60,921 nucleotides of DNA from contig JAFUVB010000109.1 of assembly GCA_017471245.1 (NCBI GenBank), positions 1-60,921 on the forward strand, read 5' to 3'. A program made the translations under genes and the position numbers. The DNA is from Prevotella sp. (GTDB taxonomy: Bacteria > Bacteroidota > Bacteroidia > Bacteroidales > Bacteroidaceae). This document shows, one piece after another, positions 1-60,620 of the stretch (positions within the stretch are counted from its first letter, which is position 1; each line of letters begins with the position of its first letter). The notes below the pieces were generated by a model, which made no database searches, was not told where the DNA came from, and saw only the letters and a list, made by a program, of their open reading frames with translations.

Positions 1-31
1 CTTGCTTCTTGCTTCTTGCTTCTTGCTTCTG
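1..31. repeat. 7-bp tandem repeat inside cbiE
   Basis: At least four copies of the unit CTTGCTT are visible and the array continues off the left edge. Three units make 21 bp, so on the coding strand it reads as a 7-residue peptide repeat (KKQEARS). Gain or loss of a single unit would shift the reading frame. Confidence 0.9.
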
Positions 32-653: not shown

Positions 654-2205
654 CTCTTCCGGGCTTTAACTGTTCTGCATCTTCCCACGCCAGGATACTG
701 TTCACCAGCGTGGCTGCTATGTTGCTGCCGCCCTTGCGACCTTCGATGATGAGCTTGGGAACGCTGACGAAGCTCTTCACCATCCATTTCGACTCGCACA
801 CATGTACGAATCCCACGGGGGCAGCCACCACTCCGGCGGGGCAAGCCTTACCCTTGCGCATCAAGTCGCACAGCTCCATGAGGGCCGTGGGCGCGTTGCC
901 GAAGACGAAAAGGGCATCGGGGTGCTCCATGACAGCCAGTCGGATGCCCGCCTGAGAGCGGGTGATGTTCAGCTCTTTCGCCATTTCAGCCACGCGCGAG
1001 TCGTGGAGATAGCATTTCACCTCTATGCCGTAGCGCTCGCATGCCACCTTCCGGATGCCGCTGGCAGCCATCGTCACGTCGGTGATAATGGTGTTCAGCC
1101 GCCCTTCAACCATCGCCTGATGCAGCACAGGCACGGCATCCTCATCCGTATAGAGCCACTTTTCCATGTCGAAATCGGCAGTGGTGTGGATGGCATGCAG
1201 CAACGGCCACTTGCGGCTGAGAGGAATTTCGGGGTTGCGCAGCTCGCTGCTGATGGTGCGGAAACTCTCCATCATGATAGACTGACCGACGTTGCGCCCG
1301 TCTTCGGCATTCTCTCCGTCTGCAGCAGAATCGCGGTAATAGCCCCGCGGAGTGATCATCTTGTCCCGCCACGCATAGCTCTGTGAGTTGCCGATGATAA
1401 GTACGGTGAACATGTCGATGTCTTCGGGGTTGAGGTCTTGGAGGGTGGTGAGTTTGATTTCCTGCTCAGGGCGACCGGCCTGGCGCACATATCCCACGGG
1501 CGTGTCGCCCCGGCGCGCCTTGAGGAACAGTTCCTTCAGACGAGAGAGCTGCCAGTAGCGGCCGTGGCTCTTGGGGTTATACACCGCAGTCACGAAGTCT
1601 GCCTCCGCCGCGGCTATGATCCGCCGCTCGATGGTGGCCCATGGTGTCATCAGGTCGGACAGTGAGATCGCGCAGAAATCATGACCGATGGGCGCGCCCA
1701 GCAAGGTTGCCGCCTTCTGGAACGCCGAAATGCCGGGATGACATTCAATAATGACGCTCTCATCGCTCATCTCTTGCTTCTTGCCTCTTGCCTCTTGCTT
1801 CTCATTACTAATCTCTTGCCTCTTGCCTCTTGCTTCTTGCTTCTCATTAGTAGTCTCTTGCTTCTTGCTTCTTGCTTCTTGCTTCTCTCTTCCATCCTCT
1901 TTCTCCCTCGCCATTTCCCATATCAGCGGCGTCATGCCATAGACGCTGGCATCGCCGCTGCTGATCACAACCACGCTGTTTCCCTGTTCGGCATACTCGA
2001 AAGCCTGCCTTGCGCGGTCGCGCTCGCGCTTCATGCCCGTGTCAACGCACTGTGCGCCCTCCTTCAGATAGGGTTCTATGAACTGGAAATAATATTTGTA
2101 GCCCACCACCACGTCGGCCTCCTTCACGGCATTCATCACCGCGGGTGTAATATCATCCTTGCTCCCCGGTCCGATGCCCACTACGGTTATCTTTGCTTTG
2201 CTCAT
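646..2205 (-). CDS. cobJ: Bifunctional precorrin-3B C17-methyltransferase / precorrin-8X methylmutase (CobJ/CbiH-CbiC fusion)
   Basis: A 519-residue fusion for two steps of corrin-ring synthesis. Residues 1 to about 300 are a tetrapyrrole methylase of the CobJ/CbiH type (N-terminal ITVVGIGPGS, VVISSGDASVYGM, and GHDFCAISLSDLMTPW). From about residue 315 to the end is CbiC/CobH, precorrin-8X methylmutase (IHTTADFDMEKW, ITDVTMAASGI, and the C-terminal PVGFVHVCESK). Between about residues 100 and 149, inside the methylase, lies a hydrophilic insert of repeated KQEARG/KQEARS units encoded by a 7-bp repeat. I chose the start at 2205 (MSKAKI) because the methylase fold begins there; an in-frame ATG also exists at 2229. 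The stop overlaps cbiE. A promoter-like TACCTTTG lies at 2234-2227. The fusion is common in Bacteroidetes; the insert is not a family feature. Confidence 0.93.
   Translation of the reverse strand: MSKAKITVVGIGPGSKDDITPAVMNAVKEADVVVGYKYYFQFIEPYLKEGAQCVDTGMKRERDRARQAFEYAEQGNSVVVISSGDASVYGMTPLIWEMAREKEDGREKQEARSKKQETTNEKQEARGKRQEISNEKQEARGKKQEMSDESVIIECHPGISAFQKAATLLGAPIGHDFCAISLSDLMTPWATIERRIIAAAEADFVTAVYNPKSHGRYWQLSRLKELFLKARRGDTPVGYVRQAGRPEQEIKLTTLQDLNPEDIDMFTVLIIGNSQSYAWRDKMITPRGYYRDSAADGENAEDGRNVGQSIMMESFRTISSELRNPEIPLSRKWPLLHAIHTTADFDMEKWLYTDEDAVPVLHQAMVEGRLNTIITDVTMAASGIRKVACERYGIEVKCYLHDSRVAEMAKELNITRSQAGIRLAVMEHPDALFVFGNAPTALMELCDLMRKGKACPAGVVAAPVGFVHVCESKWMVKSFVSVPKLIIEGRKGGSNIAATLVNSILAWEDAEQLKPGRDV
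1771..1886. repeat. 7-bp tandem repeat cluster inside cobJ
   Basis: Runs of CTTGCTT and the variant CTTGCCT are broken into three blocks by short spacers of the form CTCATTA. On the coding strand they give a near-periodic Lys/Gln/Glu/Ala/Arg/Gly/Ser segment of about 40 residues. It is the same word as the array at the left edge in cbiE, but here it is interrupted and kept in frame. Confidence 0.9.
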
Positions 2206-2226
2206 GTCGTTGATAGATTGATGATG

Positions 2227-2234
2227 CAAAGGTA
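2227..2234 (-). promoter_or_regulatory. Candidate -7 element for the cob operon
   Basis: On the minus strand the sequence reads TACCTTTG, matching the Bacteroidetes -7 consensus TAnnTTTG, 21 nt before the ATG at 2205. I find no convincing TTTG -33 element at the right distance. Confidence 0.45.
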
Positions 2235-8706: not shown

Positions 8707-8866
8707 GGAATCATAATGCCCAGACTCAATGAAAATAAGATTTGCCTTTCTTGGCGGAACATCATCTAATAGAAAGACTCGTAGAACTGAAATCTTATAA
8801 AACACAAGGAACACCAGTCTTTATAGAACCATAATACTCGGATTAACAAACAAGCAAACAAAAACA

Positions 8867-46764: not shown

Positions 46765-47091
46765 TCATTCCGGCACATAGATAATCTCGCCGCTTTCCAG
46801 CTGGTAGGCGATGCCCACCTTTCTGCCCCGCTTGCCCGAAGCCTGTTGCTTGTCGCTGGGCGTGTATTGCTTGATTTGCTGACCTTGCTTGGTGATAATC
46901 TCCATATTGTCTTTTCCAGGATTCTTAATCATGGTGAAATCCTCCTTACTGAAGATTTCCGACATGTTGAAATGAGCTACGAGAGCCACCATGAGTGCCA
47001 CGGCAAACACCATTGCCACGTCGAAGAGATTGGCAACGGTCTGCATGGGGTCGTCGTCGCCCTGTGTCAGGAGTCGATTGTTATTTCTCAT
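46765..47091 (-). CDS. DUF2149 domain protein (HmuV-like)
   Basis: A 108-residue protein with one membrane helix near its N-terminus. RNNNRLLTQGDDDPMQTVAN is the family start, then LFDVAMVFAVALMVALVAHF. The C-terminal part is a small extracytoplasmic domain ending GIAYQLESGEIIYVPE. The topology resembles ExbD. Its start overlaps the channel gene stop by 11 bp, and the order chelatase-membrane protein-channel-DUF2149 is that of Hmu-type tetrapyrrole operons (established from Porphyromonas hmuSTUV). It probably pairs with the channel protein as an energising unit. Confidence 0.85.
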   Translation of the reverse strand: MRNNNRLLTQGDDDPMQTVANLFDVAMVFAVALMVALVAHFNMSEIFSKEDFTMIKNPGKDNMEIITKQGQQIKQYTPSDKQQASGKRGRKVGIAYQLESGEIIYVPE

Positions 47092-47713
47092 CGTCTTTGG
47101 GTTTGCGTTCAGGGTTAACGTGGGTAAGCAGCTGGCGCACATACTCCAGGTTGTTCAGTTCGCGGGCATACCATCGCTGGCGCACCTGCAAGGTTGCCAC
47201 GCCGATGGCTGCTATCACCATTCCCACCACAGTGGTGGCAAATGCCACCTGCATGTTGTATGCCATGGATGAGATGTCGCCTGTGGCAAGTCCGACAAGA
47301 GCCGGTCCCATAGGAATAAGTGTTCCCATCAGTCCGAGCATCGGTCCGAGCTTCACCAGAATGCGTGATCCTGACAGTTCTTTAGCGGCATCCACCTCAT
47401 AATTAGCCACCACGCGCTCGCAGAAAGGAGCATTCGTGCTGTTGGAGCCCAGTGCGTTGAGAGCCTTCATATATGAGGAGCCGACAGTGGATGATGACGA
47501 AGCAGAAAGGTTGTTCACCCCATTGACCACCTCTTCAGCATCAGCCGACTCGATGAAAGCAGTCTGCGACAGGATGGTTTTGCGACGATGGAACTCGCCG
47601 AAGAATCCTGCGGCGAGGAGGAGCGCCCTGCCGAGGAACAGCAGTAGCAGTACGATGACTGGCACCAACAATCCGTTGGATATCCAGAATAGAATGTTTG
47701 ATATAGTTTCCAT
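47081..47713 (-). CDS. MotA/TolQ/ExbB family proton channel protein (HmuU-like)
   Basis: A 210-residue protein with three membrane segments (VPVIVLLLLFLGRALLLAA near 16-34; LGPMLGLMGTLIPMGPALVG near 128-147; VAFATTVVGMVIAAIGVATL near 160-180). The second and third make the TolQ/ExbB channel pair. It overlaps the DUF2149 gene. It would use the proton gradient to drive the membrane-anchored chelatase or an associated transporter. Confidence 0.88.
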   Translation of the reverse strand: METISNILFWISNGLLVPVIVLLLLFLGRALLLAAGFFGEFHRRKTILSQTAFIESADAEEVVNGVNNLSASSSSTVGSSYMKALNALGSNSTNAPFCERVVANYEVDAAKELSGSRILVKLGPMLGLMGTLIPMGPALVGLATGDISSMAYNMQVAFATTVVGMVIAAIGVATLQVRQRWYARELNNLEYVRQLLTHVNPERKPKDDEK

Positions 47714-47720
47714 AATGTTA

Positions 47721-48251
47721 TTAATAACCAGTTATTGCCACACAAAGAATCAGGATCAGCAGGTTGATGATGAATAGCATCTCCTGCCGTGCGGGGCGGT
47801 TGCCTAATGCCCGGCGCAGAAGTGTGCTTCCCCCGACAACGAACAGCAGTGCGGCGAGGGCAGAGATCCATCTCAGGAGTTCAAAACCCACACCGGGCAT
47901 CAGAAAGAGCAGCTGCGCCAGAAAGTAACAGATGGCAGCAGCAAAGAGCATGCCGGGATAGCAGCACAGCAACAGGCGCATCCAGCGCGTGCGGGGCGTT
48001 GCGAAGCAGAACGCAATCATCACCACGGCTTCGAGAACCACGCAAACGGCAAGGTTGAGCAGTGTGTTCCTGTTGGTGCACATCTCAATGAATGCGTCAT
48101 GCGGCAGTTCTGTCATGCGCGGAACCACCCATGCGGTGAAGGCTGCAGAGATAAATGCCACCGCCACGAGCCCTTTCATGGGGAAGAATCCCACCTTCAG
48201 GAGGAAGCTTACCGCCACGAGACATGCCATGATCGCTATCAGGATTTCCAT
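47721..48251 (-). CDS. Membrane protein of a CobN-linked operon (HmuT-like)
   Basis: A 176-residue protein with about five membrane helices (AIMACLVAVSFLLKVGFFPM, LVAVAFISAAFTAWVV, LLNLAVCVVLEAVVMIAFCF, LLLCCYPGMLFAAAICYFLA, MLFIINLLILILCVAITGY). No catalytic motif is seen. Placement between the CobN-like chelatase (5-bp gap) and the channel gene matches the third gene of Hmu-type operons. Function unknown. Confidence 0.75.
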   Translation of the reverse strand: MEILIAIMACLVAVSFLLKVGFFPMKGLVAVAFISAAFTAWVVPRMTELPHDAFIEMCTNRNTLLNLAVCVVLEAVVMIAFCFATPRTRWMRLLLCCYPGMLFAAAICYFLAQLLFLMPGVGFELLRWISALAALLFVVGGSTLLRRALGNRPARQEMLFIINLLILILCVAITGY

Positions 48252-48256
48252 TTATC

Positions 48257-51200
48257 TTATTTTCTTCGTCTCAGATACGCTATCAGAATCAGCAGCACCG
48301 CCACCACAGCGCCGCCCACAAGCATTCCGTTCACCACGTGGGGCTGGTTCATGAGCGACGGCTTGCTGTTTTTCTCTTTCAGCACCATCTCTTTCTGTCC
48401 CGACTGTCCCAGCTTTGCGGCATCCATGCTGCGCTGATAGTCGCTGCGTGCCTTACCCTGAAGCTGCGATGAGATGTAGCTCTGCAGCTTTTCGTTGTTG
48501 CATACGAAATCTGTGCAGGCAGCGCCGCTCTCGTTGGTGATCTCTGCATGCAGCTGTGCAAGTGACTTCAGCTGTGCGGCTGTAGGCTTCCAGAATCCTT
48601 TGCGAGCACTTTCCAGCATCACTGAAGTCATGGCTTGATAGGCAGCGGGGTTCACTTTCTGGAAGTATTTGCGCACGCCCAACTGCTGCTCATCGGTGAC
48701 ATACAGGCGGAAGAGGTCGTTATAAAGCTCCTTGTCGAGTGCATCGGGACGCGTGGCGCTCCATCCGAAGATGTTGCGGAACATTTCTCCGAACATCTGG
48801 GCTGTCCCCTCGTCACCCTTCATGTGCTCTTTGATATACACAGGGTTGAGCAGTGATGTGCGCACTTCCACGGCAATGGCCTCCTTGGCATCCTGCATGC
48901 GTCGGTTGGAACGGTTTCGATAATCGGCAAGATAGGCATCGGGCTGCTTTCCGGTGAGGGTTTTCACGGTGAGCGACAGCCCGCCCGTGAATTCATATAC
49001 ATGGTCGAGCGAAACAGGTCCCCATGTATTGCTTTGCCGTGGCTGCACCACCACGTCGGTTTCTTGCAGTGCCGACGCGAAGAGGTTGGGCTGGTAGCCG
49101 CCCCAGTGCTGCTCATCGCCATAGGAGGCACCCATGTTGTTCAGGTAGCCGTCAGCCAGTTCCGATGGCTTATCCCATGTTCCGCTGCGCTCGATATAGT
49201 TCATCATGCCTGTGCTGTAGCCGTTGTTCACTGGACCAAACACACGCATGGTGGAGAGTTCGCGTGCCTGTTTCGGCGATACACCCTTCTCCATGAGCTG
49301 CTTTTCCTGCAACAGGGTGCCTTCATAAACGAAGTTGCTGTCTTCTTTCTCGGTCGATGCCAGCTTCACGGCATCGGTAATCAGTTTTAGGCGTGAGCCG
49401 GCGATGTCGCGCAACTGCCCGCTCACCTGCACCACCACATTGATTCTCGGTCGGCGCAGTTCCTTTCGCGGTATCAGGCGGAAGTCGTTGATGCGCCCTT
49501 CCTTGTCGCGTATCGGTTCCACACCGAGCATCCACAGTGCCTGAGCAATGGTGGCACCCTGCGTGTTGATGAATTCTCCAGCCCAGAAAGTATAGCTCAC
49601 CTTGCGCGGCCATTCTCCGTTGTGCTGCTTGCGGTAGCGTTCCAGGGTGTTTTCTGCCAGCCGCTTGCCGTCTTCCCATGCCTGTGGGTCGGGCGTGTTC
49701 TCGGGGTTGATGCTGAACATGTTCCTGCCTGTGGGCAGCACATTGGGGTTCAGCACGGGATCTCCACCCGGAGCAGGTGCCACCGTGCCGCCATTCAGCG
49801 CGCGCACCATGTTGGAGAATTCGTCGTGGGTGGATTGGAGAAGGAGTGAGGCATAGTTCTTTGCATTCGGGTCCTCACCATTCAGGATTGCTCGTCTTGC
49901 GCGAGGCAGATAATGATGGGCCACGAAAGCATAGTCTTGCAGCTGTTTTGTGGTGATTCGTCCTGCATCGCGGTCTTTCCTTGCCATGTCGTATGCCAGC
50001 GGATCGGCACAGATGGCGATGGTGGTGTTCTGCAAGTCGCGCCCGGAATAGGGCTGTCCCATGGTGTAATAGGCGCCTTGCATCTTCTCGTTGGATAGTT
50101 CTTCCAGATGGGCATCTAATCGCTCCAGCTCTTCTGTTGTATAGGGTTTCGATAGGTTATCGTCGAGATTCAGTTCCCGATGCAGGCCTTGCTTTGTGAT
50201 TTCTTTCTTGATGGAGAGGATGAGTGGAACGTTCTGTCCGCCACTTTCCACCGCTTTGTGAATGTTGTTGAGCAGTGTTGCATACTTTTCTTGCATGCCG
50301 CTTGGCACGTATGGCGCCGTGAGATAAGTGAGCAGCACGGCATGGCTGCGGCGCTTGGCTATGATACTCTCACCCACGTTGCCAGTAGTGTAGTAGTAGA
50401 AATGCGGAATACTGCCGATGAGCGCTGCGCTCCAGTCTTCATGGCGCATGCCCGCATCGCGTCCCGGCGTGAACTCCAGGTTGCCATGAGTGCCGAAATG
50501 GATGAGTGCATCTGCTTGAAATCCCTTTTGCATGTAGAGATAAGGAGCCAGATAACTGTGGGGCGGCGGTACCTCAACACCGTGCACCAGCTTGAAATCG
50601 TCGTCGCCCAAGGCCGGACGGGGCTGTGGAAAGAGCAGGATGTTGCCGTAGCGAATGCATGCCACGGCCAGTGAGTCGCCTTTCGAGAGCAGGCTGCCTG
50701 GTGCTTCGCCGTAGTGTTCCACCACTTCTCCATATTTTTGCGGTGCCAACACTTCCTTCGCCCATCTCTCGTATTGCTCCTTAGTGAGCCAGAGGGGATG
50801 CCCTTCGCGCATGTATTTCTCTTGCACGCCCTTGGCATACGATCCCATCACCATGCCTTCAGTCTTGATTTGTCGGGCAAAAGCACCAAGCGTGGTGGGC
50901 AGTCCGCTCACATTGTATCCTTCAGCGCGGAGCTGTTTTAGGAAATTATACATCGACGGTATCACCTCCATGCCGCTTGCCAAGAGTGCATCCTTGCCCG
51001 GTCGTTTGAAATAGCCGATGGCAATGCGCTTGTCTGCGTTGTTCTTGGTGCGCAGTGCAAGATATTTCTCCACTGTTTCAGCGAAAGCCGTGCATCGCTC
51101 CACTTCTGCCGTGTGCTTGTAGAAGCCTTTCTTGTCTTTGTTTTGCGTGCCGATGCAGAATGGGGTGATGCCGCCGTCGATCTCGGGAATCACGATGCGT

Positions 51201-52129
51201 GAGTTCTTCGAACCGGCCGTCATGGGACGGTTTGCATCCATCCATTCCTCATGGGTTGCTGAAAGAGGGAAGGGATTGAACAGCAAGATGTTCTTTTCTT
51301 GTAGCCATGAGATAAGGGTATCGTTGCCCAAGCGTCCCATCGACATATACACGATGGCATCGGGCATCAGTTCCTTGATCATCTTTTCGCGCTTCTTACC
51401 CGTGCATGTCATGGGATAAACGTTCATGCCGCGCCGGGTCAGCATGGTGATAAGCGTGTCTACATGCTCACGGTTGCCCTCCATGGGGAACTGAATACCC
51501 GATATGAGCGCAACGGTGTTACCACCTTCGTGATACATTCCTTCTTTTTTCAGATAGGCAGTCAGCTCTGCGGCATTCTTGAAATAACGACCGTAGGCAC
51601 GGTGGTAGTACATGTTCTTCAGTATTTCCACGGGTGCCTCCACCTCTTGGTCGCCCCAACGGTGAGGCGTAGCGATATGGCGCAGGTAGCGAAGTCCGTT
51701 GCGATAGTTCTCGCGGTTCTCGTTTTCGAAATATTGCTGCAGCTGGTCGATCTGCTCCTTGCTGAGATTCTTGTTGATGACAAAGTTGGTACTCTTCAGT
51801 GCCTTCGTGAATACGGGAACGCCCTTCTTGCTAACGCGCTCAATCTCTGCCAGTTGCTCATCGTTGAGATAGATTCTTCGGGCATAGATCACCACGGCAT
51901 CGTAACCGTTGAGGCTTCCCATCTGGTCGCCTTCCACGCATTCCACTTCGATGTGCCTGCTGTCGTTGCTGAGAATGAAGTCGGCTTCTTGTGCTCTGAG
52001 GGTGTTTACAATCAGAATGCGCGTAGGCGCCATCCAGTGTCGATAGCCAAAATAGCCCAAGAAGCCTGCCAGCATTGCTGCACAGGCTCCGTAGAGTATG
52101 GTTCTCTTGACTGTTGATATCTTTGTCAT
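48257..52129 (-). CDS. cobN: CobN-like chelatase, membrane-anchored (HmuS/BtuS type)
   Basis: A 1290-residue protein of the CobN/magnesium-chelatase H family. The N-terminal helix (ILYGACAAMLAGFLGYFGY, about 11-29) and the C-terminal helix (GMLVGGAVVAVLLILIAYL) anchor it at both ends; the body between would lie outside the cytoplasm. Family motifs are HFGTHGNLEFTPGRD (about 540-555) and GSIPHFYYYTTGNVGES. Cytosolic CobN has no such anchors and works with CobS/CobT, which are absent here. Relatives (HmuS, BtuS) are linked to metal release or exchange in heme and corrinoids. It is the third gene after the receptor in a cobalamin-riboswitch operon. Confidence 0.87.
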   Translation of the reverse strand: MTKISTVKRTILYGACAAMLAGFLGYFGYRHWMAPTRILIVNTLRAQEADFILSNDSRHIEVECVEGDQMGSLNGYDAVVIYARRIYLNDEQLAEIERVSKKGVPVFTKALKSTNFVINKNLSKEQIDQLQQYFENENRENYRNGLRYLRHIATPHRWGDQEVEAPVEILKNMYYHRAYGRYFKNAAELTAYLKKEGMYHEGGNTVALISGIQFPMEGNREHVDTLITMLTRRGMNVYPMTCTGKKREKMIKELMPDAIVYMSMGRLGNDTLISWLQEKNILLFNPFPLSATHEEWMDANRPMTAGSKNSRIVIPEIDGGITPFCIGTQNKDKKGFYKHTAEVERCTAFAETVEKYLALRTKNNADKRIAIGYFKRPGKDALLASGMEVIPSMYNFLKQLRAEGYNVSGLPTTLGAFARQIKTEGMVMGSYAKGVQEKYMREGHPLWLTKEQYERWAKEVLAPQKYGEVVEHYGEAPGSLLSKGDSLAVACIRYGNILLFPQPRPALGDDDFKLVHGVEVPPPHSYLAPYLYMQKGFQADALIHFGTHGNLEFTPGRDAGMRHEDWSAALIGSIPHFYYYTTGNVGESIIAKRRSHAVLLTYLTAPYVPSGMQEKYATLLNNIHKAVESGGQNVPLILSIKKEITKQGLHRELNLDDNLSKPYTTEELERLDAHLEELSNEKMQGAYYTMGQPYSGRDLQNTTIAICADPLAYDMARKDRDAGRITTKQLQDYAFVAHHYLPRARRAILNGEDPNAKNYASLLLQSTHDEFSNMVRALNGGTVAPAPGGDPVLNPNVLPTGRNMFSINPENTPDPQAWEDGKRLAENTLERYRKQHNGEWPRKVSYTFWAGEFINTQGATIAQALWMLGVEPIRDKEGRINDFRLIPRKELRRPRINVVVQVSGQLRDIAGSRLKLITDAVKLASTEKEDSNFVYEGTLLQEKQLMEKGVSPKQARELSTMRVFGPVNNGYSTGMMNYIERSGTWDKPSELADGYLNNMGASYGDEQHWGGYQPNLFASALQETDVVVQPRQSNTWGPVSLDHVYEFTGGLSLTVKTLTGKQPDAYLADYRNRSNRRMQDAKEAIAVEVRTSLLNPVYIKEHMKGDEGTAQMFGEMFRNIFGWSATRPDALDKELYNDLFRLYVTDEQQLGVRKYFQKVNPAAYQAMTSVMLESARKGFWKPTAAQLKSLAQLHAEITNESGAACTDFVCNNEKLQSYISSQLQGKARSDYQRSMDAAKLGQSGQKEMVLKEKNSKPSLMNQPHVVNGMLVGGAVVAVLLILIAYLRRRK

Positions 52130-52174
52130 CGTTCTTTTTTATAATTAAAACCTCGTCATCAAATAATGGAATGA

Positions 52175-53101
52175 TTAGTCTTTCTGTGTGGAGTAGGCGG
52201 CTTTCTTCTCCATGATGCCGCGCACACGGTGGTTCATCAGGAACTGGATGTGCTGCATGAAGATGTCTTGAATCTCGGGAATCTCACCCAGTCCTTCGAT
52301 GTGCAGTTCCACTAAGAAACCTTCTTTCTCTAAGTTTTCTTTCCAATCTTGTGAGATATCGTTCTTGGCATGGTCGCCAGCGACGAACATCAGCGGTGCC
52401 AATATCAACGTCTTTGCCTTGGCTGCTTTCAGCATCTGCACGGCATTGTCGAAGGTTGGGTAGCCTTCGATGGTTCCCACGTGGTAGTTGGGATGTCCCT
52501 CTGCCTTGAGCATGTAGTCAATCTCACTGTAGATGGCGGTGGCAGGTGTTTCCGTGCCGTGTCCCACGAAGAGCACGTGTTCGCGTTTCTTCGCGTTTGT
52601 GGGAATACGCTTGGTGAGAATGTCAACCACTCGCAGTGCATCGTCGGTGCTATACATCAGCGGATTGCCCACGCGAATCTCCTTGAAGAAGGGCTTCACG
52701 CTCTCCACGTCGTTTCGCAGCGACTCCATCTCCACGCCGTCGATGATGTTCGTGCTCTGAATGATGAGGTGAGTGTAGCCTTCGGCACGCAGGCGGAGCA
52801 TGGCTTCTAATGGTGACTCCTTGCTGATGCCGCGCGCTTTCAGACGGCGCATGATGATTCTTGAGGTGTAGCTCTCGCGCACATCAAGTTTCGGGAACAT
52901 TGCCTTTGCCTTTTGGTTGATGGCATCGATGGTCTTGGTGCGTGTGTCGTCGTGGGTGGTTCCGAAGTGCACCATCAGCAGTGCCGCCTTGTCGTCCTTC
53001 TGCAAGGAAGTCAGCAAATTACTTTCCACGAAAGACGACAGTTCCTGTGCATGAATACTCACGCACAGGAACATCAGAAGGATTGAGAATGTCTTTCTCA
53101 T
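52175..53101 (-). CDS. cbiK: Secreted CbiK-type sirohydrochlorin cobaltochelatase
   Basis: A 308-residue protein with a signal peptide (MRKTFSILLMFLCVSIHAQ). The CbiK fold is shown by LMVHFGTTHDDTRTKTIDAI, HLIIQSTNIIDGVEME, VLFVGHGTETPATAIYSEID (catalytic His) and LAPLMFVAGDHAKNDISQDW (second metal-binding His). Cytosolic CbiK inserts cobalt into sirohydrochlorin; exported forms are known in Desulfovibrio. Here the export signal and the operon with a membrane chelatase suggest a periplasmic step. A second, lipoprotein form is at 57035. Confidence 0.9.
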   Translation of the reverse strand: MRKTFSILLMFLCVSIHAQELSSFVESNLLTSLQKDDKAALLMVHFGTTHDDTRTKTIDAINQKAKAMFPKLDVRESYTSRIIMRRLKARGISKESPLEAMLRLRAEGYTHLIIQSTNIIDGVEMESLRNDVESVKPFFKEIRVGNPLMYSTDDALRVVDILTKRIPTNAKKREHVLFVGHGTETPATAIYSEIDYMLKAEGHPNYHVGTIEGYPTFDNAVQMLKAAKAKTLILAPLMFVAGDHAKNDISQDWKENLEKEGFLVELHIEGLGEIPEIQDIFMQHIQFLMNHRVRGIMEKKAAYSTQKD

Positions 53102-53116
53102 ACACTTGCAAAAAAA

Positions 53117-54427
53117 TTATTTCTTATCAGTGCTCTTCTCGTCTTGAACCAGGCGAATCTGGTCGAAGTAATAGCCCGGAGCGATGCTCAGACCCTTTGT
53201 AACAGCACCTGTAGCCACATCATAGACATAGACAGTCTCGCCCTCGTCATTGCTGACACCGAAGTAGGCTTTGTTCTCCTTGGCATTATAGACAGCACGC
53301 TGCGAGAAACTGCCGGCGCTATAAGGCAGGTCCACACCATTGTATTTAATGCGGGTAGCCGTCTTGGCATTCAAGTCAACAATGGAGTAATAGTAAGCCA
53401 CGTCCTGAATACCTGTGCCAATACTTGCATCACCTGAATAAGCCAGTGCCTTACCATTGCCGATATACAGCACAGACACGATTTTACCTAAAGCATCGGG
53501 GAAGGCATTGTAACCAGCCTCGAAGTCGTACTCGCCCTTCTTGATGCGCAGCAGTTTGCCGATGTTCTTCTTGTTGACACTGCTGAATGCAGACAGATAG
53601 AGGTTTTCCTGATCATCGAAGAACATGAAGTTCTGCATCAGTTCTCCGTAAGCAGAGCCCTGCATCTCGGAAGCCTCCTTATTGACAATCTCGCGCTCCA
53701 CAGCCATCGTCTCAGGATTGATGATAGCAATGTGGAAGAACGACTCTTTACTTGCCGTACGTCCAGAACCTTTCTTGCTGTAGTAGAAATAAAACAATTT
53801 GTTGTCGCTCTTACGATAGGTGAGCAGACCGCTGGTGGTAAATGTTTCGAAACCCTCGGCTACTGTTAGTGGCAGTGTACCCTCATTGATGATGGTCATA
53901 TCATCCGTGTTCAGTTTGGTCCATACAATCTTGTCAGCAGTACCATTAGCAGCCATGACAACCAGCGTGTTCTCATTAAGCCATGCATGGGTGTACTTAC
54001 GTGCAGCATAGGTGTTGGTGCCGAACGGACGCTCGCGGATAACGTTCAGTTCTTGCTTGTCCTTGTTCTGTTTCTGTATAATCTGTAACTTGGCGAAGCG
54101 GTCTTCGGTAGTAGGAACCTGATACATGTACTTGCCGTCATAGATACTCTCAATGGTGTAGTCAGTTATTTCAACACCCTTACCGTTGAAATCAATAGTT
54201 GTATTAGGATCTGACAGGGAGGGAACGCTCATGGTCAGGTGAGTCTCTTGCGAGGCCATACCGCCGTGCTTGCCTATAGTCACCGTCAGGTCGTAATGGT
54301 AAGTCTCCTCAGGCTGTTCCGGCTCGGCCGGATTGTCAGAATTGTCATCGTCACTTGAGCAAGATGTCATTGCAAAGGCGAACATCAGAGCCACCATTGC
54401 AGAATGGAAATAACTCAGTTTTCTCAT
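53117..54427 (-). CDS. DUF4374 domain surface lipoprotein
   Basis: A 436-residue lipoprotein; the lipobox is MTSC followed by SSDDD, a surface-export type. The DUF4374 body is beta-rich with propeller-like repeats (ENTLVVMAANGTADKIVWTK, NKLFYFYYSKKGSG, KAYFGVSNDEGETVYVYDVA). Such proteins sit beside TonB receptors for iron or corrinoid uptake. By analogy with BtuG it may cap the receptor encoded just before and bind its substrate, but the two families are not the same; this is inference. Confidence 0.85.
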   Translation of the reverse strand: MRKLSYFHSAMVALMFAFAMTSCSSDDDNSDNPAEPEQPEETYHYDLTVTIGKHGGMASQETHLTMSVPSLSDPNTTIDFNGKGVEITDYTIESIYDGKYMYQVPTTEDRFAKLQIIQKQNKDKQELNVIRERPFGTNTYAARKYTHAWLNENTLVVMAANGTADKIVWTKLNTDDMTIINEGTLPLTVAEGFETFTTSGLLTYRKSDNKLFYFYYSKKGSGRTASKESFFHIAIINPETMAVEREIVNKEASEMQGSAYGELMQNFMFFDDQENLYLSAFSSVNKKNIGKLLRIKKGEYDFEAGYNAFPDALGKIVSVLYIGNGKALAYSGDASIGTGIQDVAYYYSIVDLNAKTATRIKYNGVDLPYSAGSFSQRAVYNAKENKAYFGVSNDEGETVYVYDVATGAVTKGLSIAPGYYFDQIRLVQDEKSTDKK

Positions 54428-54453
54428 TTTAAATTGAATTATTGTTATACATA

Positions 54454-56613
54454 TTAGTTAAATAAAACTCTAAATTTGAGGAACAGGGAGCGTCCCGGCT
54501 TTTGCAGTTTGTAATTGTCGTAAACGGTCTGATCCAGGATGTCCTGACAATTCAGCGACACGCCATAGCGGTTGTTGTGCCATGTGTATGTGGCATAGGC
54601 TCCTATCAGGTTCTTTTCAGGAATCCGTGCCTTGGTTTCTGGCAGTCCGTAGGCCTCCCAAGAGAGATAGAACCAGTGAACCCACTGATAGTCCATGCCC
54701 AAAGTGAGTTTGTCGGTCTTCGTCAACAAGTCGTGGAAAGAATAGCGTGCTTCTGCCGATGCAAAGAGCCATGGGCGGTTGGGTACGTGGTTCTTGTAGG
54801 TCACCGACGGTTTGCCGTCATCCTTGTATCGATTGTTGTCACGGGCATCTTGCCAACTCATGTTTGCCACCACCTGCAGTCGCTTGTCCCAGTCGTAGCG
54901 CAGTTCACCCTCCAAGCCTTTGATGCTCACGGCGGGTTCGTTGACATACTGCAGATAGCCCTCGTCGTCGGATATTTGCGGCTGGATGTAATTGTCTACA
55001 AAGCGCATGAACCCGTTCACCTCATAGTACAAGCTGTGCAGACCTTTCTGGAACGTGCCGAAAAGACCGAGGTTTATGTTGTTGCTCTCTTCCGGCTTCA
55101 GTGCTGTATTGGCATAGATGGTGGTTCCGTTGCCCAGCAGCTCGCGTGCGAGCGGCAGGCGTACACTGTGCTCATAGCTCGCCTTCACTGCTAACGAAGG
55201 ATTGATTTCAAATCGTGAACCTACACCTCCCCCGATGCTGTTCTGTGTATTCGACCCTGCCATGTTTTGTGACCCTGTAATGAAATACAGGTCGGTCTGC
55301 TTTATCTTCAGCTGGTTTATATAGTCTTTCAGGAAGAAGGTGTTATACATGTGTCCTTTTAGCAGCGACTGGTTATATGCCAATCCGATGATATGCTTTG
55401 CAAAAATGTCGTTGGCTGCTTCAAAGGTTTCATCCACTTCGTCCCAACGGTTGTTCTCCGTGCGGTTCAGTGCGTAACTGAGGTTGAGCAGATGCTGATC
55501 TGTGAATCTATAGTTCAGGTCTGAGTTAAACACGGTGAGCGGACGCTTTACGTGCCGTTGCGAGAAGGCTCTTCCGTTGATTTCGTTGCGCGCACTCCTG
55601 ATCCACTCTCCGTTCCAGTCGTATTTGCGGTGGGCAGTGTCAGTTACAATAGAGTGATCCCATGTGTGAGACAGTGAGAAATTGGCACTTAATTTCTTTA
55701 TCAGGAAATCGTTTTTCTTGTATCTCGCCCCGATGCTCCAAGCTTGGTTCTGGCGTTCTGCCATGCCGATGACGTGGTTCTGAACCTGATTCGTCTGGAG
55801 TTCTTTGTTCACCTTGTTATACGATAAGGTAATAAAGCAGTCATCGGTCCACCATTTATCGCTGAAACCTACTTCCAATTGTCCTAACAGTGAGAAGTAT
55901 CCATCGTGAAAGCGTCGGCGCTTGTTGGGAAGATAGCGGCCGGCATTCTCGTCCCACACCTCCACGTCTTTCATCATGTAGTCGTTCTTGGAATAGTTGA
56001 TGCCAAAAGTAGGTCGGATGGTGAGTCCGTTTTTCAGGATATACTGACTGTTGATGTCAGCTTTGTGAGTATGGAATGAGCCGATTCCGTATGATGCATC
56101 TAAATAGTTGCTCTTCTTGCGGTTGGTGACAATGTTGACGGCACCACCCAATGCATCACTGCTCAGCCATGTTGGCACCACACCCTTGTAGATTTCGATG
56201 TGGTCAATCAGGTTGACGGGCAGGTTGGCGAGTGTCACGCCAGATCCTTTGGTATCGAGAGGCAGCCCGTCGAGGAAGTAGCGCACGGCATTGCCCGACA
56301 TTCCGTTGATGCTCAAGTCAAAGTCGGATCCAACGCCACCTTCTTCCCTTACTTTCACACCTGCAGTGCGGTCGATGATGCTGTTCAGGTTTGACAGGGC
56401 GTTCACCATTGATTTCACGTCGATGGCATTCACGGTGTAGGCACCTTCGCGCAGTTGCTGTGTTTTGCTCTTGCCCACCACAACCACGTTGTCGAGCATC
56501 ACAGAGTCTTTCATCTGGCTCCGCGACTTCCTATTCTGCTGAGCATCAACAGGCATACTGCTCAGTAGCATCACGATAGTCCATGCAACGGCAATGGAAA
56601 AGTATTTTCTCAT
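54454..56613 (-). CDS. TonB-dependent receptor of the CobN operon
   Basis: A 719-residue outer-membrane receptor. The signal peptide ends PVDAQQ. TonB box region: MLDNVVVVGKSKTQQL; plug: VRYFLDGLPLDTKGSG, VEIYKGVVPTWLSSDALGGA-like segment and VNIVTNRKK; barrel ending in FRVLFN. No CarboxypepD domain, so it is of the metal-chelate type, not SusC. The cobalamin riboswitch upstream (56846-56687) argues that the substrate is a corrinoid or a related tetrapyrrole or cobalt compound. I chose the ATG at 56613 (MRKYFSIAV); 56646 adds a leader without function. Confidence 0.9.
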   Translation of the reverse strand: MRKYFSIAVAWTIVMLLSSMPVDAQQNRKSRSQMKDSVMLDNVVVVGKSKTQQLREGAYTVNAIDVKSMVNALSNLNSIIDRTAGVKVREEGGVGSDFDLSINGMSGNAVRYFLDGLPLDTKGSGVTLANLPVNLIDHIEIYKGVVPTWLSSDALGGAVNIVTNRKKSNYLDASYGIGSFHTHKADINSQYILKNGLTIRPTFGINYSKNDYMMKDVEVWDENAGRYLPNKRRRFHDGYFSLLGQLEVGFSDKWWTDDCFITLSYNKVNKELQTNQVQNHVIGMAERQNQAWSIGARYKKNDFLIKKLSANFSLSHTWDHSIVTDTAHRKYDWNGEWIRSARNEINGRAFSQRHVKRPLTVFNSDLNYRFTDQHLLNLSYALNRTENNRWDEVDETFEAANDIFAKHIIGLAYNQSLLKGHMYNTFFLKDYINQLKIKQTDLYFITGSQNMAGSNTQNSIGGGVGSRFEINPSLAVKASYEHSVRLPLARELLGNGTTIYANTALKPEESNNINLGLFGTFQKGLHSLYYEVNGFMRFVDNYIQPQISDDEGYLQYVNEPAVSIKGLEGELRYDWDKRLQVVANMSWQDARDNNRYKDDGKPSVTYKNHVPNRPWLFASAEARYSFHDLLTKTDKLTLGMDYQWVHWFYLSWEAYGLPETKARIPEKNLIGAYATYTWHNNRYGVSLNCQDILDQTVYDNYKLQKPGRSLFLKFRVLFN

Positions 56614-56686
56614 AAAAACGGTTTGTTGTTCATCCCTCAGCGGCATCTTGTTCCCGAAACGCCAACGTTGGTAATAGCATGAATAT

Positions 56687-56846
56687 GGCAGGTTTCCTGG
56701 CTCTCTCCGAAAAGTCTGCCTTCCCGATAGCTCAGTGGCATTTGCTTTTTTTCTGACTTTTCATAATGGAGATTACAGTAGCGGGTACTGCTCAGGTCTT
56801 TCACCTGATTCCCTTTTATGTCATGGCGGAACGCCACGGCATCACC
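56687..56846 (-). promoter_or_regulatory. Cobalamin riboswitch
   Basis: Minus-strand aptamer with the B12-box elements in order: GGTGATGCCG, GGGAATCAGGTGAAAGACC, ACCCGCTACTGTAATCTCC, GCCACTGAGCTATCGGGAAG and GAGCCAGGAAACCTGCC. It precedes the TonB receptor by 74 nt. The 3' leader holds TTTCGGGAACAAGATGCCGC, also found (one base different) after the second riboswitch, probably part of the loop that pairs with the aptamer to block translation. Confidence 0.95.
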
Positions 56847-56856
56847 AATTCGGCTG

Positions 56857-56864
56857 CAAAATTA
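56857..56864 (-). promoter_or_regulatory. Promoter -7 element of the receptor-cobN operon
   Basis: TAATTTTG on the minus strand just before the riboswitch, with ATTG 19 nt upstream as a weak -33. Confidence 0.55.
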
Positions 56865-56960
56865 CACATATTTTCGCAAACGGCAATCGTTTTCTGGGAT
56901 TTTATTTCTTGCAGCAAGCCTTTTTCATCCTCTTTAACCAAGTGAGAGGATGAATCAGGG

Positions 56961-57005
56961 ACAAAAAGAGAGGGGAACGAGCGAAATCACTTCGCCACAT
57001 TCCCC
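56961..57005 (-). terminator. Intrinsic terminator of the btuB-cbiK operon
   Basis: On the minus strand: GGGGAATGTGGCGAAG paired with TTTCGCTCGTTCCCC, followed by TCTCTTTTTG. A second hairpin, TCATCCTCT/AGAGGATGA at 56925-56953, lies downstream without a T-tract. Confidence 0.75.
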
Positions 57006-57034
57006 GTTGATTAGTTATGATAAAGAGAGAGAGT

Positions 57035-58132
57035 TTACTCTTCCGGATACTTTGAGTGATAGTAGTCGAGAGGCTCGCCGTTGATGGCGTCGCGGGTGTG
57101 GTCCATCCATACCTGGCGGATGGTGGGCAGTTCGAGCAGACCTTTCTCGATCATTGTTGAGTTGTCGCAGGTGTAGCCCATGTGCTGGAAATACATCTTC
57201 CATGATGTGTCTTCCACTTCGCCCTCTTCGTTCTCCTCAAAACCGTTGTTCCAGGCATCGTCGTCGCCAGCCATGTCGTTGTGACCATGGTCGCCGTCGA
57301 TAGACATCAGCGGGTGGCAGAACACCTTGCCCGATGTGATGCCGTTGGCGCGCATACGAGCAAGCACATGTGTCTTGAAGTTGTCCATCATGTCGACCGT
57401 TCCCACGTAGTAGTTCTTGCTGATCTTCTGCAAAGCTTCTTCCAGCTGAGTATAGCGCACGTTGGCTTTGTAGGTGTCGTAAGAGTCGGGATTACCGTGT
57501 CCCATGAAGGCAACCACGCCCTGTGCGGCATTTGAGGCATAGAGCTTGTTGAGTTCGGTTGCCACCTTGTTCACGTCTTTCTCTGCATCCTGCAGCAGGG
57601 GAACGCCCAGTTTCAGCGTTACGTTGGCAAGATACTGGTCGTCGATGTCGCCGTTGCTGTTGTTGGCAAAGTCCTTGATGTAGTTGATCACGCGGGTATA
57701 CTCCTCACCGGGAATTACCTGGAGCGACTGAACCACGATCTCGCTGTATTTCACACCGTCCTGAGCAAAGGCTGTGAGCCAGAAAGGAGGAGCGTAGAAG
57801 TTGCGTGATGCCACGTTCTCACCCTCGGCGGCGCGGTTGATACAGATGGCAGAAGAGAACGACAGGAACACATCGTAGCCCGGGAAGGCGCTCTTGTAGG
57901 CAGCCACTGTTGCGTCGAAGGCGTCGTATGCCTGCTGCCAGGTTGAACCGAATGCCACCAACAGAATGGCCTTGTTGTTCTTTTTCTGTGATTTCACCGT
58001 CTCGTTCACGGCTTTCTGATAGACCGTGTAGTTGTTAGCGGTGTTGTCATCATCGTCGTCACCACAAGCCGTGAGGCTCATGCTACCGATAATTGCCATC
58101 ATGGCAATCATCAAAACATTAATTTTCTTCAT
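57035..58132 (-). CDS. cbiK: CbiK-type cobaltochelatase lipoprotein
   Basis: A 365-residue lipoprotein (signal ending LTAC then GDDDDD). The CbiK fold is seen in ILLVAFGSTWQQAYDAFDAT, IVVQSLQVIPGEEYTRV, VAFMGHGNPDSYDTYKANVR (catalytic His) and CHPLMSIDGDHGHNDMAGDD. The latter carries more His and Asp than the paralogue at 52175, which could widen metal binding. Start overlaps the btuB stop by 14 bp. The lipid anchor and Asp-rich start predict the outer membrane, possibly the cell surface. A cobaltochelatase beside a corrinoid receptor suggests cobalt or tetrapyrrole capture. Confidence 0.9.
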   Translation of the reverse strand: MKKINVLMIAMMAIIGSMSLTACGDDDDDNTANNYTVYQKAVNETVKSQKKNNKAILLVAFGSTWQQAYDAFDATVAAYKSAFPGYDVFLSFSSAICINRAAEGENVASRNFYAPPFWLTAFAQDGVKYSEIVVQSLQVIPGEEYTRVINYIKDFANNSNGDIDDQYLANVTLKLGVPLLQDAEKDVNKVATELNKLYASNAAQGVVAFMGHGNPDSYDTYKANVRYTQLEEALQKISKNYYVGTVDMMDNFKTHVLARMRANGITSGKVFCHPLMSIDGDHGHNDMAGDDDAWNNGFEENEEGEVEDTSWKMYFQHMGYTCDNSTMIEKGLLELPTIRQVWMDHTRDAINGEPLDYYHSKYPEE

Positions 58133-60284
58133 AATTACTTTGGTTTAAATTGGTATTGAATTTGTTACTGGTTTTCTTTCCTTTGGCAAAGCGGATGGAG
58201 AACGAGGCATAGAGCGTCGTTCCGGGCGTGGTGGTGCCTAAGTGCAGGCCGTGGGGCGTGCGGTCGCAGTAGTTGAATATGTTGTCGATGCCTGCCTCCA
58301 CGCGATAGGTCATTCCTGCCTTGCTGCTCTTTTTGGGAGCGAAATCGTGCGTCGTGGCAAGTCGCCATATCTGGTAGCCCTTGCCGTTGCCGTTGATCTG
58401 GTAGTAGCGCTTGGTCGACATCTTGCCGTAAACACCCACGCCCATGCGGTAGCCGCTCAGGAATGAATGGTTCCAAGTGGCGAAAACATTCCCTTTGTGG
58501 TGCGCCATGCCGTCGATGATCACCTGATGCATGCGGTCGTGGTTGGTGTCGTAGGTATTGGCTTCGGTGTCTAAATAGCTGTATCCCAATCCCATCGCCC
58601 ATTCTTTCCATGCATATCTCACGTTCACGTCGGCTCCGTAGGTCTTTGCATCTTCGATATTCTGATACTGGCGCGTTTTCACCGGGTCGTATTGCACGAT
58701 GTATTCCGCCGGTGCATCATAGTTGGGTATGGTTACTAAGGCAATCATGTCGTTCACCTTATTATAATATCCTGTTACCGTCACCGACAGGCCGTTCCAT
58801 GTATATTCGCCGCCGATGGAATAATAGTTGCTCTTTTGAGGTGTGAGGTCAAGGTTTCCTAAATAGAGGTAGGTGCCGCTCATCTGGCGCACATAGCGGT
58901 AATAGAGTTCCTTGGTGGTGGGAGTCTTGAATCCTTGGCTCCATGTGGCGCGCAGTCGCAATGGATTGCCGATGCGATACATGACAGACACTTTCGGCGT
59001 GAGTCGGAATCCGAACTCGTCGTTGTGGTTCAGTCGCAGTCCGGCAGTGATGTTCGTGTTGGGTATCAGGTTGAACTCATCCTGCACGTAGGCAGCTTCG
59101 TTGTTGTCGTGAACGGTTCCGCCCACCACGCGCGTTGGTGATTCGAGCCAGTCGTAGCGGTATTCCAGTCCTGCACTCAGCTGGTTTTCGTATGGCAGTG
59201 TGAACACTCCTTTCAGGTTCACCATCGTGCGCTGCTGGTCGCTCTGCAGTTCTGTCTGGTCGGGCAGGTAGGGGAAGTAGGGGTAGTAGATGGTTCCCTT
59301 GCTCTTTTCATAGTCTTCCACCAGCGTGTTTGCAGTGAAATAGTAGTAGTAGGCGTGGCGGTTCCAGTCCACATCCAGTGTTATCACGTCTGTCTTGTTG
59401 AGCTTCCACTTGCCGCCCACGGCAGCCGATGCGTTTCGGTATTGCAGGTCGTAGGTGTATACGTCATAGTGGGGATACTTGCCGCTCACTCTGTAGATGC
59501 GCTTCCAGTAGGTGCTTCCCTCGGCATACAGCTCAATGTCTTTCGCGGGAGTGTAGGTGATGCGCTCTGCCACCTGCCAGTTGGTGTGGCGGTTGGTGGT
59601 TTTGTTGCGCGAGTCGTTGATGGGAGTCTCCGATCCCTGCGTATATTCCGTGGCGGTGTTCTGCCATCCGTCGGAATGCTGCAGCTGGAAATTGGTGTAG
59701 CTGCTCCATCTGCCTATGCTCAGTCCGAAGCCGTTGTGCTGCCTGATATCGCCGAAACTGCCAATGCGCGAGGTGTTCTCCACGAGGATACCTTCCTGCT
59801 GGTGCTTCTTCGTGATGATGTTCACCACGCCCGCAATGGCATCGCTGCCGTAGAGTGCGCTCGAAGCGCCCTTCACTATCTCTATCTTCTCGATGTTCTG
59901 AGGGTCGATCAGTCCCAGGTCGTTCTGCCCGCCCACGTCGCCGTGGATGCGCTTGCCGTCAATCAGAACCAGGATATAGTCATTGCCAAGGCCGTTCATC
60001 TGCATCTGGCTTCCCATGTCGTCCTCATTGAAGTCGAACGACGAGGTGAGCATGCCCAGCAGTTCCTGAATGTTCTTGCCGGCGTAGTTCTTCAGCATCT
60101 TACCGCTGATCACCTCCGTCTGCACAGGTGCGTTCTTCAGAAGGTGCTCCGTGCCGGTGCCGGTAACCACCACTTCCTCAAGCTGAACGTTCTTGTTGAC
60201 GACCGACTGTGACAGAGCTGGCTGCCATCCCATCACGGACAGCAGTACAGCTATAACATAACATTTATTAAAAGAGATTTTCAT
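58119..60284 (-). CDS. btuB: BtuB-like TonB-dependent receptor
   Basis: A 721-residue outer-membrane receptor. The signal peptide ends PALSQS; TonB-box region VQLEEVVVTGTGTEHLL; plug with VLIDGKRIHGDVGGQNDLGL and IVKGASSALYGSDAIAGVVN; barrel ending in YASFSIRFAKG with a tail. The BtuB assignment rests on the cobalamin riboswitch directly upstream and on its neighbour, a CbiK-type protein; FecA-like siderophore receptors look similar in sequence. It is the first gene of its operon. Confidence 0.88.
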   Translation of the reverse strand: MKISFNKCYVIAVLLSVMGWQPALSQSVVNKNVQLEEVVVTGTGTEHLLKNAPVQTEVISGKMLKNYAGKNIQELLGMLTSSFDFNEDDMGSQMQMNGLGNDYILVLIDGKRIHGDVGGQNDLGLIDPQNIEKIEIVKGASSALYGSDAIAGVVNIITKKHQQEGILVENTSRIGSFGDIRQHNGFGLSIGRWSSYTNFQLQHSDGWQNTATEYTQGSETPINDSRNKTTNRHTNWQVAERITYTPAKDIELYAEGSTYWKRIYRVSGKYPHYDVYTYDLQYRNASAAVGGKWKLNKTDVITLDVDWNRHAYYYYFTANTLVEDYEKSKGTIYYPYFPYLPDQTELQSDQQRTMVNLKGVFTLPYENQLSAGLEYRYDWLESPTRVVGGTVHDNNEAAYVQDEFNLIPNTNITAGLRLNHNDEFGFRLTPKVSVMYRIGNPLRLRATWSQGFKTPTTKELYYRYVRQMSGTYLYLGNLDLTPQKSNYYSIGGEYTWNGLSVTVTGYYNKVNDMIALVTIPNYDAPAEYIVQYDPVKTRQYQNIEDAKTYGADVNVRYAWKEWAMGLGYSYLDTEANTYDTNHDRMHQVIIDGMAHHKGNVFATWNHSFLSGYRMGVGVYGKMSTKRYYQINGNGKGYQIWRLATTHDFAPKKSSKAGMTYRVEAGIDNIFNYCDRTPHGLHLGTTTPGTTLYASFSIRFAKGKKTSNKFNTNLNQSNYEEN

Positions 60285-60448
60285 TTCCTCGATTTAATAA
60301 TAATGCACATTGTGAAAATGCGTGGCATGATGCATGCCAGAGCATTCTATTCTGTTCACCAAGTCACCTTTTGATGACCCTTATATTCCGTAAGGCTTGT
60401 TGTCGCCGCGGCATCTTGATCCCGAAATATCCGCTTTGATGCATGAAA

Positions 60449-60602
60449 TGGCAGGTTTCCTGGCTCTCTCCGAAAAGTCTGCCTTCCCGATTGCTCAGTG
60501 GCTTCGCCGTAGACTTTTCATAATGGAGATTACAGTAGCGGGCACTGCTCAGGTCTTTCACCTGATTCCCTTTCTGCTCCGGCGGATCGCCGGTGCATCA
60601 CC
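60449..60602 (-). promoter_or_regulatory. Cobalamin riboswitch
   Basis: Minus-strand aptamer with the same ordered boxes: GGTGATGCACCGGCGATCC, GGGAATCAGGTGAAAGACC, GCCCGCTACTGTAATCTCC, GCCACTGAGCAATCGGGAAG and GAGCCAGGAAACCTGCC. The leader to the btuB ATG is about 165 nt, longer than that of the other copy. The block TTTCGGGATCAAGATGCCGC follows it. Confidence 0.95.
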
Positions 60603-60612
60603 AAATTCGGCG

Positions 60613-60620
60613 CAAAGGTA
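60613..60620 (-). promoter_or_regulatory. Promoter -7 element of btuB
   Basis: TACCTTTG on the minus strand, about 10 nt before the aptamer; TTGG stands 18 nt upstream as a weak -33. From 60621 to 60835 I see no gene. Confidence 0.55.

Follow-up and report, generated by a model that had tools for sequence, protein, structure and literature searches.

The 60,921-nucleotide window analysed here (positions 1 to 60,921 of contig JAFUVB010000109.1, assembly GCA_017471245.1, Prevotella sp.) carries on its minus strand two operons headed by cobalamin riboswitches, which together encode two TonB-dependent receptors, two exported chelatases of the CbiK family and a membrane-anchored CobN-like chelatase, BtuS. 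We consider it fairly probable that this locus provides the opening steps of an anaerobic B12 pathway of the salvage type, in which a scavenged ring of the sirohydrochlorin type would receive cobalt outside the cytoplasm from an exported CbiK and B12 would be finished inside the cell. The window is contig C80 of the window genome (G000), an assembly of 3.73 Mb that is 94% complete, and all searches of that genome reported below refer to this assembly.

The corrin pathway of the window genome is truncated at its upper end. Genes were found for CbiE (3..653, minus strand, at the contig end; TIGR02467, 155 bits against a cut-off of 92.9) and for a CbiH-CbiC fusion (CbiHC; 646..2229, minus strand; TIGR01466, 305 bits against a cut-off of 246; PF02570) at the left end of the window, and for CbiT, a CbiG-CbiF fusion (CbiGF) and CbiL on other contigs. 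The CbiHC-CbiE pair (window 1-2229) and the CbiT-CbiGF pair (L108, on G000:C64) stand at two contig ends and are probably adjoining in the genome. Neither HemC (porphobilinogen deaminase) nor SUMT was found, the six tetrapyrrole-methylase matches being Cbi proteins and an rRNA methyltransferase, and the cell apparently cannot produce uroporphyrinogen III or precorrin-2. The only CbiK genes found are the two exported copies of the window, with no cytoplasmic one, and a search for a separate CbiX returned CbiK_A only. Since no SUMT, no HemC and only exported CbiK were found, the pathway, as far as it was searched, would start at sirohydrochlorin or its cobalt form, with the CbiK-family chelatases lying outside the cytoplasm.

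The original prediction for this locus had proposed two exported CbiK-type chelatases, and both bear this out. CbiK_A (52175..53101, minus strand) matches PF06180 with an E-value of 9e-78, aligns with Salmonella CbiK (1qgo, E 1.2e-44) and has a Sec type I signal. CbiK_B (57035..58132, minus strand) matches PF06180 (E 2e-42), is homologous to 9b86, 1qgo and 2xvx, the last of which we take to be the exported CbiK of Desulfovibrio, and has a lipobox followed by an acidic run (CGDDDDD). Acidic residues after the lipobox cysteine are the type of signal that sends lipoproteins of Bacteroidota to the surface; the run in CbiK_B suggests that this putative lipoprotein is displayed on the cell surface, and at least three acidic residues just after the cysteine are present in 20 CbiK. 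Among 66 CbiK reading frames, taken from the window and the retrieved loci (hits at G010:C22 and in G079 lie outside this set), a Sec or lipoprotein export signal, called by a home-made Sec/lipobox rule and not by SignalP, is present in 65, as against 2 of 94 cytoplasmic CbiGF, CbiL, CbiHC and CbiE controls; the lone miss (L017) begins with a hydrophobic segment that contains no basic residue. The catalytic Glu/His/His triad is kept in 53 of the 66, CbiK_A and CbiK_B included. By family and triad, CbiK_A and CbiK_B match what is expected of sirohydrochlorin cobaltochelatases and we treat them as putative members of that class, with both scoring under the NCBIfam equivalog cut-off of 400 bits. 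They thus share the sequence family and the triad with the Salmonella and Desulfovibrio enzymes, but differ from them in the nearly universal export signal and in that no cytoplasmic CbiK was found beside them. Eight CbiK (L048, L051, L053, L059 and L071-L074) have lost both histidines; no riboswitch precedes seven of these, the genome of L071 lying outside the riboswitch search, and such exported paralogues may bind tetrapyrroles rather than metallate them.

The link between exported CbiK and a headless corrin pathway extends across the family. The survey comprised 101 genomes, namely 100 family genomes at least 95% complete and the window genome; its rows are related and some are near-copies, so that Fisher values overstate independence. 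With the CbiGF fusion, called by score, as corrin marker, 30 of the 101 are corrin genomes, and CbiK was found in 29 of these 30 versus 3 of the 71 others (Fisher p 8e-21, related genomes being treated as independent). Of the three exceptions, G079 has a fragment of 60 residues, the protein of G087 lacks the two catalytic histidines and that of G002 has Met in place of Glu. HemC is present in four of the 101, one of them a corrin genome, and was not found in 29 of the 30 corrin genomes, the window genome included; SUMT exceeds its cut-off in 1 of the 30 and reaches about 160 bits in four more. A cytoplasmic CbiX standing in for CbiK was considered and rejected, as a CbiX search of the 30 corrin genomes returned CbiK itself and three weak matches (22-23 bits, in 332-397-residue frames of G017, G089 and G096). 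Of the 44 CbiK genes of corrin genomes, 34 have a cobalamin riboswitch no more than 7.5 kb upstream, mostly at a distance of about 2.4 kb, which leaves room for one receptor; these 34 come from 27 of the 29 corrin genomes with CbiK. CbiK and CbiHC occur on the same strand within 20 kb in 25 genomes, in 22 of which a receptor lies directly upstream of CbiK, the usual arrangement being riboswitch, receptor, CbiK, in many cases another receptor, then CbiHC, CbiE, CbiT and CbiGF.

In the window all parts named by the original prediction are present at their positions, all on the minus strand, with the families of the proteins assigned by Pfam and hydropathy. Both predicted riboswitches are confirmed as RF00174 with a gathering score of 31.5. 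The first, RS1 (60433..60620, 82.5 bits), is followed by the receptor TBDT_B (58119..60284; PF00593 and PF07715) and CbiK_B, and relatives of TBDT_B at 41-67% identity directly precede a CbiK lipoprotein in corrin operons of other genomes. The second, RS2 (56670..56864, 81.4 bits), is followed in order by the receptor TBDT_A (54454..56646), a 436-aa lipoprotein (53117..54427), CbiK_A, BtuS (48257..52129; PF02514, CobN-Mg_chel, E 3e-283), an HmuT-like polytopic membrane protein of 176 aa (47721..48251), an ExbB/MotA-like channel resembling HmuU (47081..47713; PF01618, E 4.8e-10) and an HmuV-like DUF2149 protein with one transmembrane stretch by hydropathy (46765..47142; PF09919, E 2e-34). The polytopic protein, recognised by hydropathy, matches no Pfam family over the cut-off and was assigned no family in the family searches; its relatives follow BtuS in 11 of 21 loci by tblastn. 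Both receptors of the locus have matches to BtuB. TBDT_A is a Pfam TonB receptor and is XusA-like (phmmer to 9gbc, E 1.2e-106), 9gbc being the XusAB complex (PMC13142918). The lipoprotein beside it matches no Pfam family over the cut-off, and a single-sequence search was empty; a profile of 14 homologues matches XusB (9hqe) with E 8.1e-8 over about 155 residues, XusB being a propeller of seven blades that forms the lid of its receptor. Standing side by side, TBDT_A and the 436-aa protein look like a receptor with a surface lid, as far as their sequences go. In this they resemble XusAB and BtuBG, which differ in serving siderophore or B12 uptake, no chelatase being mentioned in the available text on them.

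Two further cobalamin riboswitches occur in the window genome. In the stretch L110:13099-16856 (G000:C71) the third precedes a TonB-type receptor and a PepSY-like membrane protein, labels that were given by eye, and the fourth (L003/L111, G000:C30:42589-42775) has no frame of 130 residues or more within the first 1.4 kb downstream. Near the corrin genes, at window 4603-9859, an McrB-like AAA protein, McrC and a RhuM-family protein make up a likely restriction island.

BtuS, like the haem de-chelatase HmuS, is a membrane-anchored class I chelatase. Its best solved relative is HmuS (9d26), and the order of chelatase, polytopic protein, ExbB-like protein and DUF2149 is that of the hmuYRSTUV system of Bacteroides thetaiotaomicron and Porphyromonas gingivalis. 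The original prediction noted this order together with control by B12, and both hold. The HmuS family is defined by a Met-rich insertion, Met-79, His-254 and body motifs, and His-538 is essential for HmuS turnover (PMC12583661). We compared 23 BtuS with 24 HmuS sequences, leaving the headless fragments L099 and L107 out of both the residue comparison and the tree. The column of Met-79 holds Arg in all 23 BtuS and Met in all 24 HmuS; His-254 and Gln-299 are each kept in none of the 23 and in all of the 24, the window protein having Arg and Met at the positions of Met-79 and His-254. Immediately after the Gln-299 position all 23 BtuS have Arg, where HmuS proteins have Ser or Thr. The domain IV insertion measures 0-33 residues with 0-1 Met in the 23 BtuS, compared with 83-261 residues and 4-27 Met in the 24 HmuS. 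The catalytic histidines of the body, His-538 and His-1209, are kept in all 23 BtuS. Met-79, His-254 and Gln-299 being replaced and His-538 and His-1209 kept, the reaction centre is retained and the haem-holding site is remade with arginines; such arginines in the head and neck would suit a many-carboxylate ring such as siroheme. The two groups are separated with full support in a tree made by a quick method. The window protein is ruled out as an HmuS orthologue by its haem-ligand residues and the missing Met-rich insert; the hmu operon differs further from the present locus, which has B12 riboswitches, a neighbouring CbiK and a corrin pathway in the same genome.

An assignment of the window protein to the CobN of the aerobic pathway is excluded by topology, as it has a C-terminal membrane anchor and a basic tail and is not a soluble cytoplasmic protein. 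The prediction that it is anchored at both ends stands for the C-terminus, where residues 1263-1289 form a clear transmembrane stretch followed by RRRK. At the N-terminus, the segment exceeds the Kyte-Doolittle cut-off of 1.6 in 21 of 25 BtuS rows, the two headless fragments counted, and in the window protein it falls below. The absence of CobS and CobT was upheld within the locus, where Pfam assigned none of the nine proteins to an ATPase family such as CobS/CobT or ChlI/ChlD; no genome-wide search for these was made. Likewise, none of the nine belongs to the HmuY family, hmuY elsewhere in the genome not having been searched.

Nearly all genomes with BtuS carry a corrin marker. Its relatives were taken from 21 named genomes chosen by likeness to the window protein, which with the window genome and G016 make 23; in the 21 named genomes CbiC served as the corrin marker, in place of the CbiGF used in the survey. 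CbiC is present in 20 of the 21, and a corrin marker in 22 of the 23, compared with 6 of 24 HmuS genomes (Fisher p 6e-7, with independence overstated by related rows). The sole exception, L018, has the longest end branch on the BtuS side of the tree and no adjoining ExbB or DUF2149. In 14 of the 21 relatives the gene immediately before the CobN-like one is CbiK, and 13 of these 14 loci also have an upstream cobalamin riboswitch, so that the arrangement recurs more than chance would allow. No such riboswitch was found at the 22 HmuS loci scanned (L098 and L100 fell outside the scan). The nearest relatives are in Prevotella-type genomes, several of whose record titles name rumen or other forestomach samples. 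Four loci (L012, L016, L020 and L025) have BtuS without an adjoining receptor or CbiK, and L018 has a receptor only. In L006 and L008 the receptor and CbiK genes lie 3.6 kb from BtuS, beyond genes on the opposite strand, and neither locus is among the 14; these two loci come from genomes with different names and share 95% identity over their initial 13.6 kb, which holds the upstream genes and most of BtuS, and diverge after BtuS. At the BtuS locus of G016 (L089) the stretch contains no cobalamin riboswitch, and BtuS lacks adjoining relatives of CbiK or ExbB/DUF2149; the same genome also has HmuS.

On the salvage reading, scarcity of B12 would let the riboswitches permit expression of the operons, and receptors and chelatases would be made. 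The TonB receptors would then import a scavenged sirohydrochlorin-type tetrapyrrole. CbiK_B, probably at the surface beside TBDT_B, would load cobalt onto metal-free sirohydrochlorin, and a metallated ring may be taken up through TBDT_A and its XusB-like lid. In the periplasm BtuS would probably free such a ring, which might be siroheme, of its unwanted metal, after which CbiK_A would insert cobalt. The cobalt-loaded ring would enter the cytoplasm, where CbiL, CbiH/C, CbiG/F, CbiT and CbiE would build the corrin ring. The role of the HmuT/ExbB/DUF2149-like set may be to energise BtuS or transport across the inner membrane, and the proton gradient could be the source of power, as the original prediction supposed. 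The second operon, with its XusA/XusB-like pair and BtuS/T/U/V module, would be an addition of this clade. A complete metal swap outside the cytoplasm, in which BtuS would remove iron or another metal from siroheme, or from a similar octacarboxylate ring, that the cell has scavenged and exported CbiK would add cobalt, with receptor and surface CbiK making cobalt-sirohydrochlorin elsewhere in the family, is in our judgement a tentative proposal, somewhat doubtful as it stands.

An alternative explanation is that the locus is a haem-iron system, in which the CobN-like protein would take iron from haem as HmuS does, the CbiK proteins would act like IhtB and control by B12 would be incidental. Besides the hmuSTUV gene order and the match to 9d26, the CbiK relative FetB (9b86) is named a haem-binding protein, and the IhtAB system of P. 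gingivalis, like the present locus, joins a receptor to a CbiK-like lipoprotein (PMC10913741), with the difference that it was studied as haem uptake. Bacteroides fragilis BtuS1, a possible orthologue of the window protein whose operon also contains cbiK, has been ascribed to metalloporphyrin salvage or haem iron, whereas BtuS is tied here to a truncated corrin pathway. With haem as iron source, growth of the btuS1 btuS2 double mutant is poorer than that of either single mutant, btuS2 included, which points to some haem role for BtuS1; the btuS1 single mutant, however, has no haem defect, and the cbiK mutant of that operon has no haem-iron defect according to unpublished data cited in the same paper (PMC6460266). 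IhtB is also outside Fur control (PMC10913741). With the haem ligands lacking throughout BtuS, an insert that is short and almost free of Met, riboswitches at the CbiK-BtuS loci and at none of the HmuS loci scanned, and a corrin marker in nearly all BtuS genomes, we think this explanation unlikely.

The riboswitches and the receptor matches to BtuB would also suit corrinoid remodelling or B12 uptake, in which cobalamin or cobinamide is imported and the chelatases exchange or remove its cobalt. Corrins hold cobalt very firmly, however, known CbiK enzymes act on sirohydrochlorin, and CbiK tracks the genes of corrin-ring synthesis, which a mere importer would not need. A role in cobalamin metabolism has been suggested for such operons (PMC10100974), and remodelling of this kind nevertheless seems to us quite improbable. 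The original prediction had envisaged metal removal from, or insertion into, corrinoids or tetrapyrroles outside the cytoplasm; the location of the chelatases agrees with it, but the system fits a feed of scavenged tetrapyrrole into B12 synthesis better than the demetallation of finished corrinoids, because the corrin pathway lacks HemC as far as it was searched, no cytoplasmic CbiK was found and CbiK is linked to corrin genes. It could also be that exported CbiK loads cobalt on any tetrapyrrole as a cobalt carrier, the ring being supplied otherwise. The cobalt importer CbiM is over its cut-off in none of the 101 genomes, other cobalt importers not having been searched, and this absence fits cobalt entering as a chelate, though it extends to the genomes without a corrin pathway. 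In most of the genomes an alternative supply of the ring cannot be seen, HemC being present in 1 of 30 corrin genomes, and such cobalt capture, which differs from the salvage reading mainly in the limiting component, has in our view little probability.

Apart from the double mutant, several observations weigh against the salvage reading itself. BtuS was found in no more than 2 of the 30 corrin genomes of the survey and is therefore not needed for the basic scheme, being an addition to a salvage pathway, and 7 of the 21 BtuS loci have no CbiK directly upstream. Of the conserved basic positions, BtuS has gained seven and lost six relative to HmuS, so a general rise of positive charge was not found and the claim is limited to the local arginines of head and neck. 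Two riboswitch-linked CbiK have a changed triad (T/R/H in L023, D/H/H in L010), G032 has the corrin genes but no CbiK was found in it, and G020 has HemC and SUMT, yet an exported CbiK. The four SUMT-like proteins of about 160 bits, under the cut-off of 185 bits, belong to Bacteroides-type genomes (G017, G089, G093 and G096); in L101 (G093) and L104 (G096), from genomes without HemC, the SUMT-like protein adjoins a TonB receptor, with a BtuC/FecC-type permease and ATPase in L104 as well. Some of these genomes may import an earlier, uroporphyrin-type precursor and make precorrin-2 inside, out of reach of the exported chelatase. The equal absence of CbiM from the 71 non-corrin genomes also counts on this side, as does an older survey table in which 6 of 30 Bacteroidetes have other predicted cobalt transporters (PMC2667541). 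Sirohydrochlorin takes up cobalt in vitro without an enzyme (PMC7689651), we met no mention of such bacteria taking up sirohydrochlorin or siroheme in the available text of the open-licence PubMed Central literature, and the scheme requires a crossing of the inner membrane by cobalt-sirohydrochlorin that we infer.

Riboswitch-bearing Hmu-like operons and the name BtuS are already published, the CobN-like protein having reportedly been proposed as a third kind (Rodionov et al. 2003), and the exported CbiK as the cobalt-insertion step of the Bacteroidota corrin pathway is a proposal that we did not meet in the available open-licence PubMed Central text. In Xylanibacter ruminicola KHP1, which produces propionate only with added cobalamin, six genes after a cobalamin riboswitch (four annotated as cobalamin biosynthesis and two as TonB transporters) are among the seven most changed by cobalamin, and partial synthesis from precursors was suggested by the authors (PMC11575231); that operon may correspond to those described here. 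Like the tetrapyrrole precursor salvagers of Shelton et al. 2018, the window genome has a corrin pathway without the early tetrapyrrole steps, but the available part of that study proposes no uptake route and no place of cobalt insertion.

The salvage reading offers a testable answer to an older enigma, the presence of a corrin pathway in Bacteroidota unable to make uroporphyrinogen III: in P. gingivalis, as Roper et al. reportedly pointed out in 2000, the corrin pathway is kept without the early tetrapyrrole steps, although uroporphyrinogen III cannot be made. If the reading is true, the cytoplasm is not the only place where cobalt can be inserted, and IhtB and other CbiK-like lipoproteins that have been investigated as haem proteins may have their role in B12 metabolism. 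Some gut Bacteroidota now counted as B12 non-producers could then make B12 from shared tetrapyrroles, and, were the metal swap also true, the cofactor that other microbes use in their sulphite and nitrite reductases would become starting material for vitamin B12.

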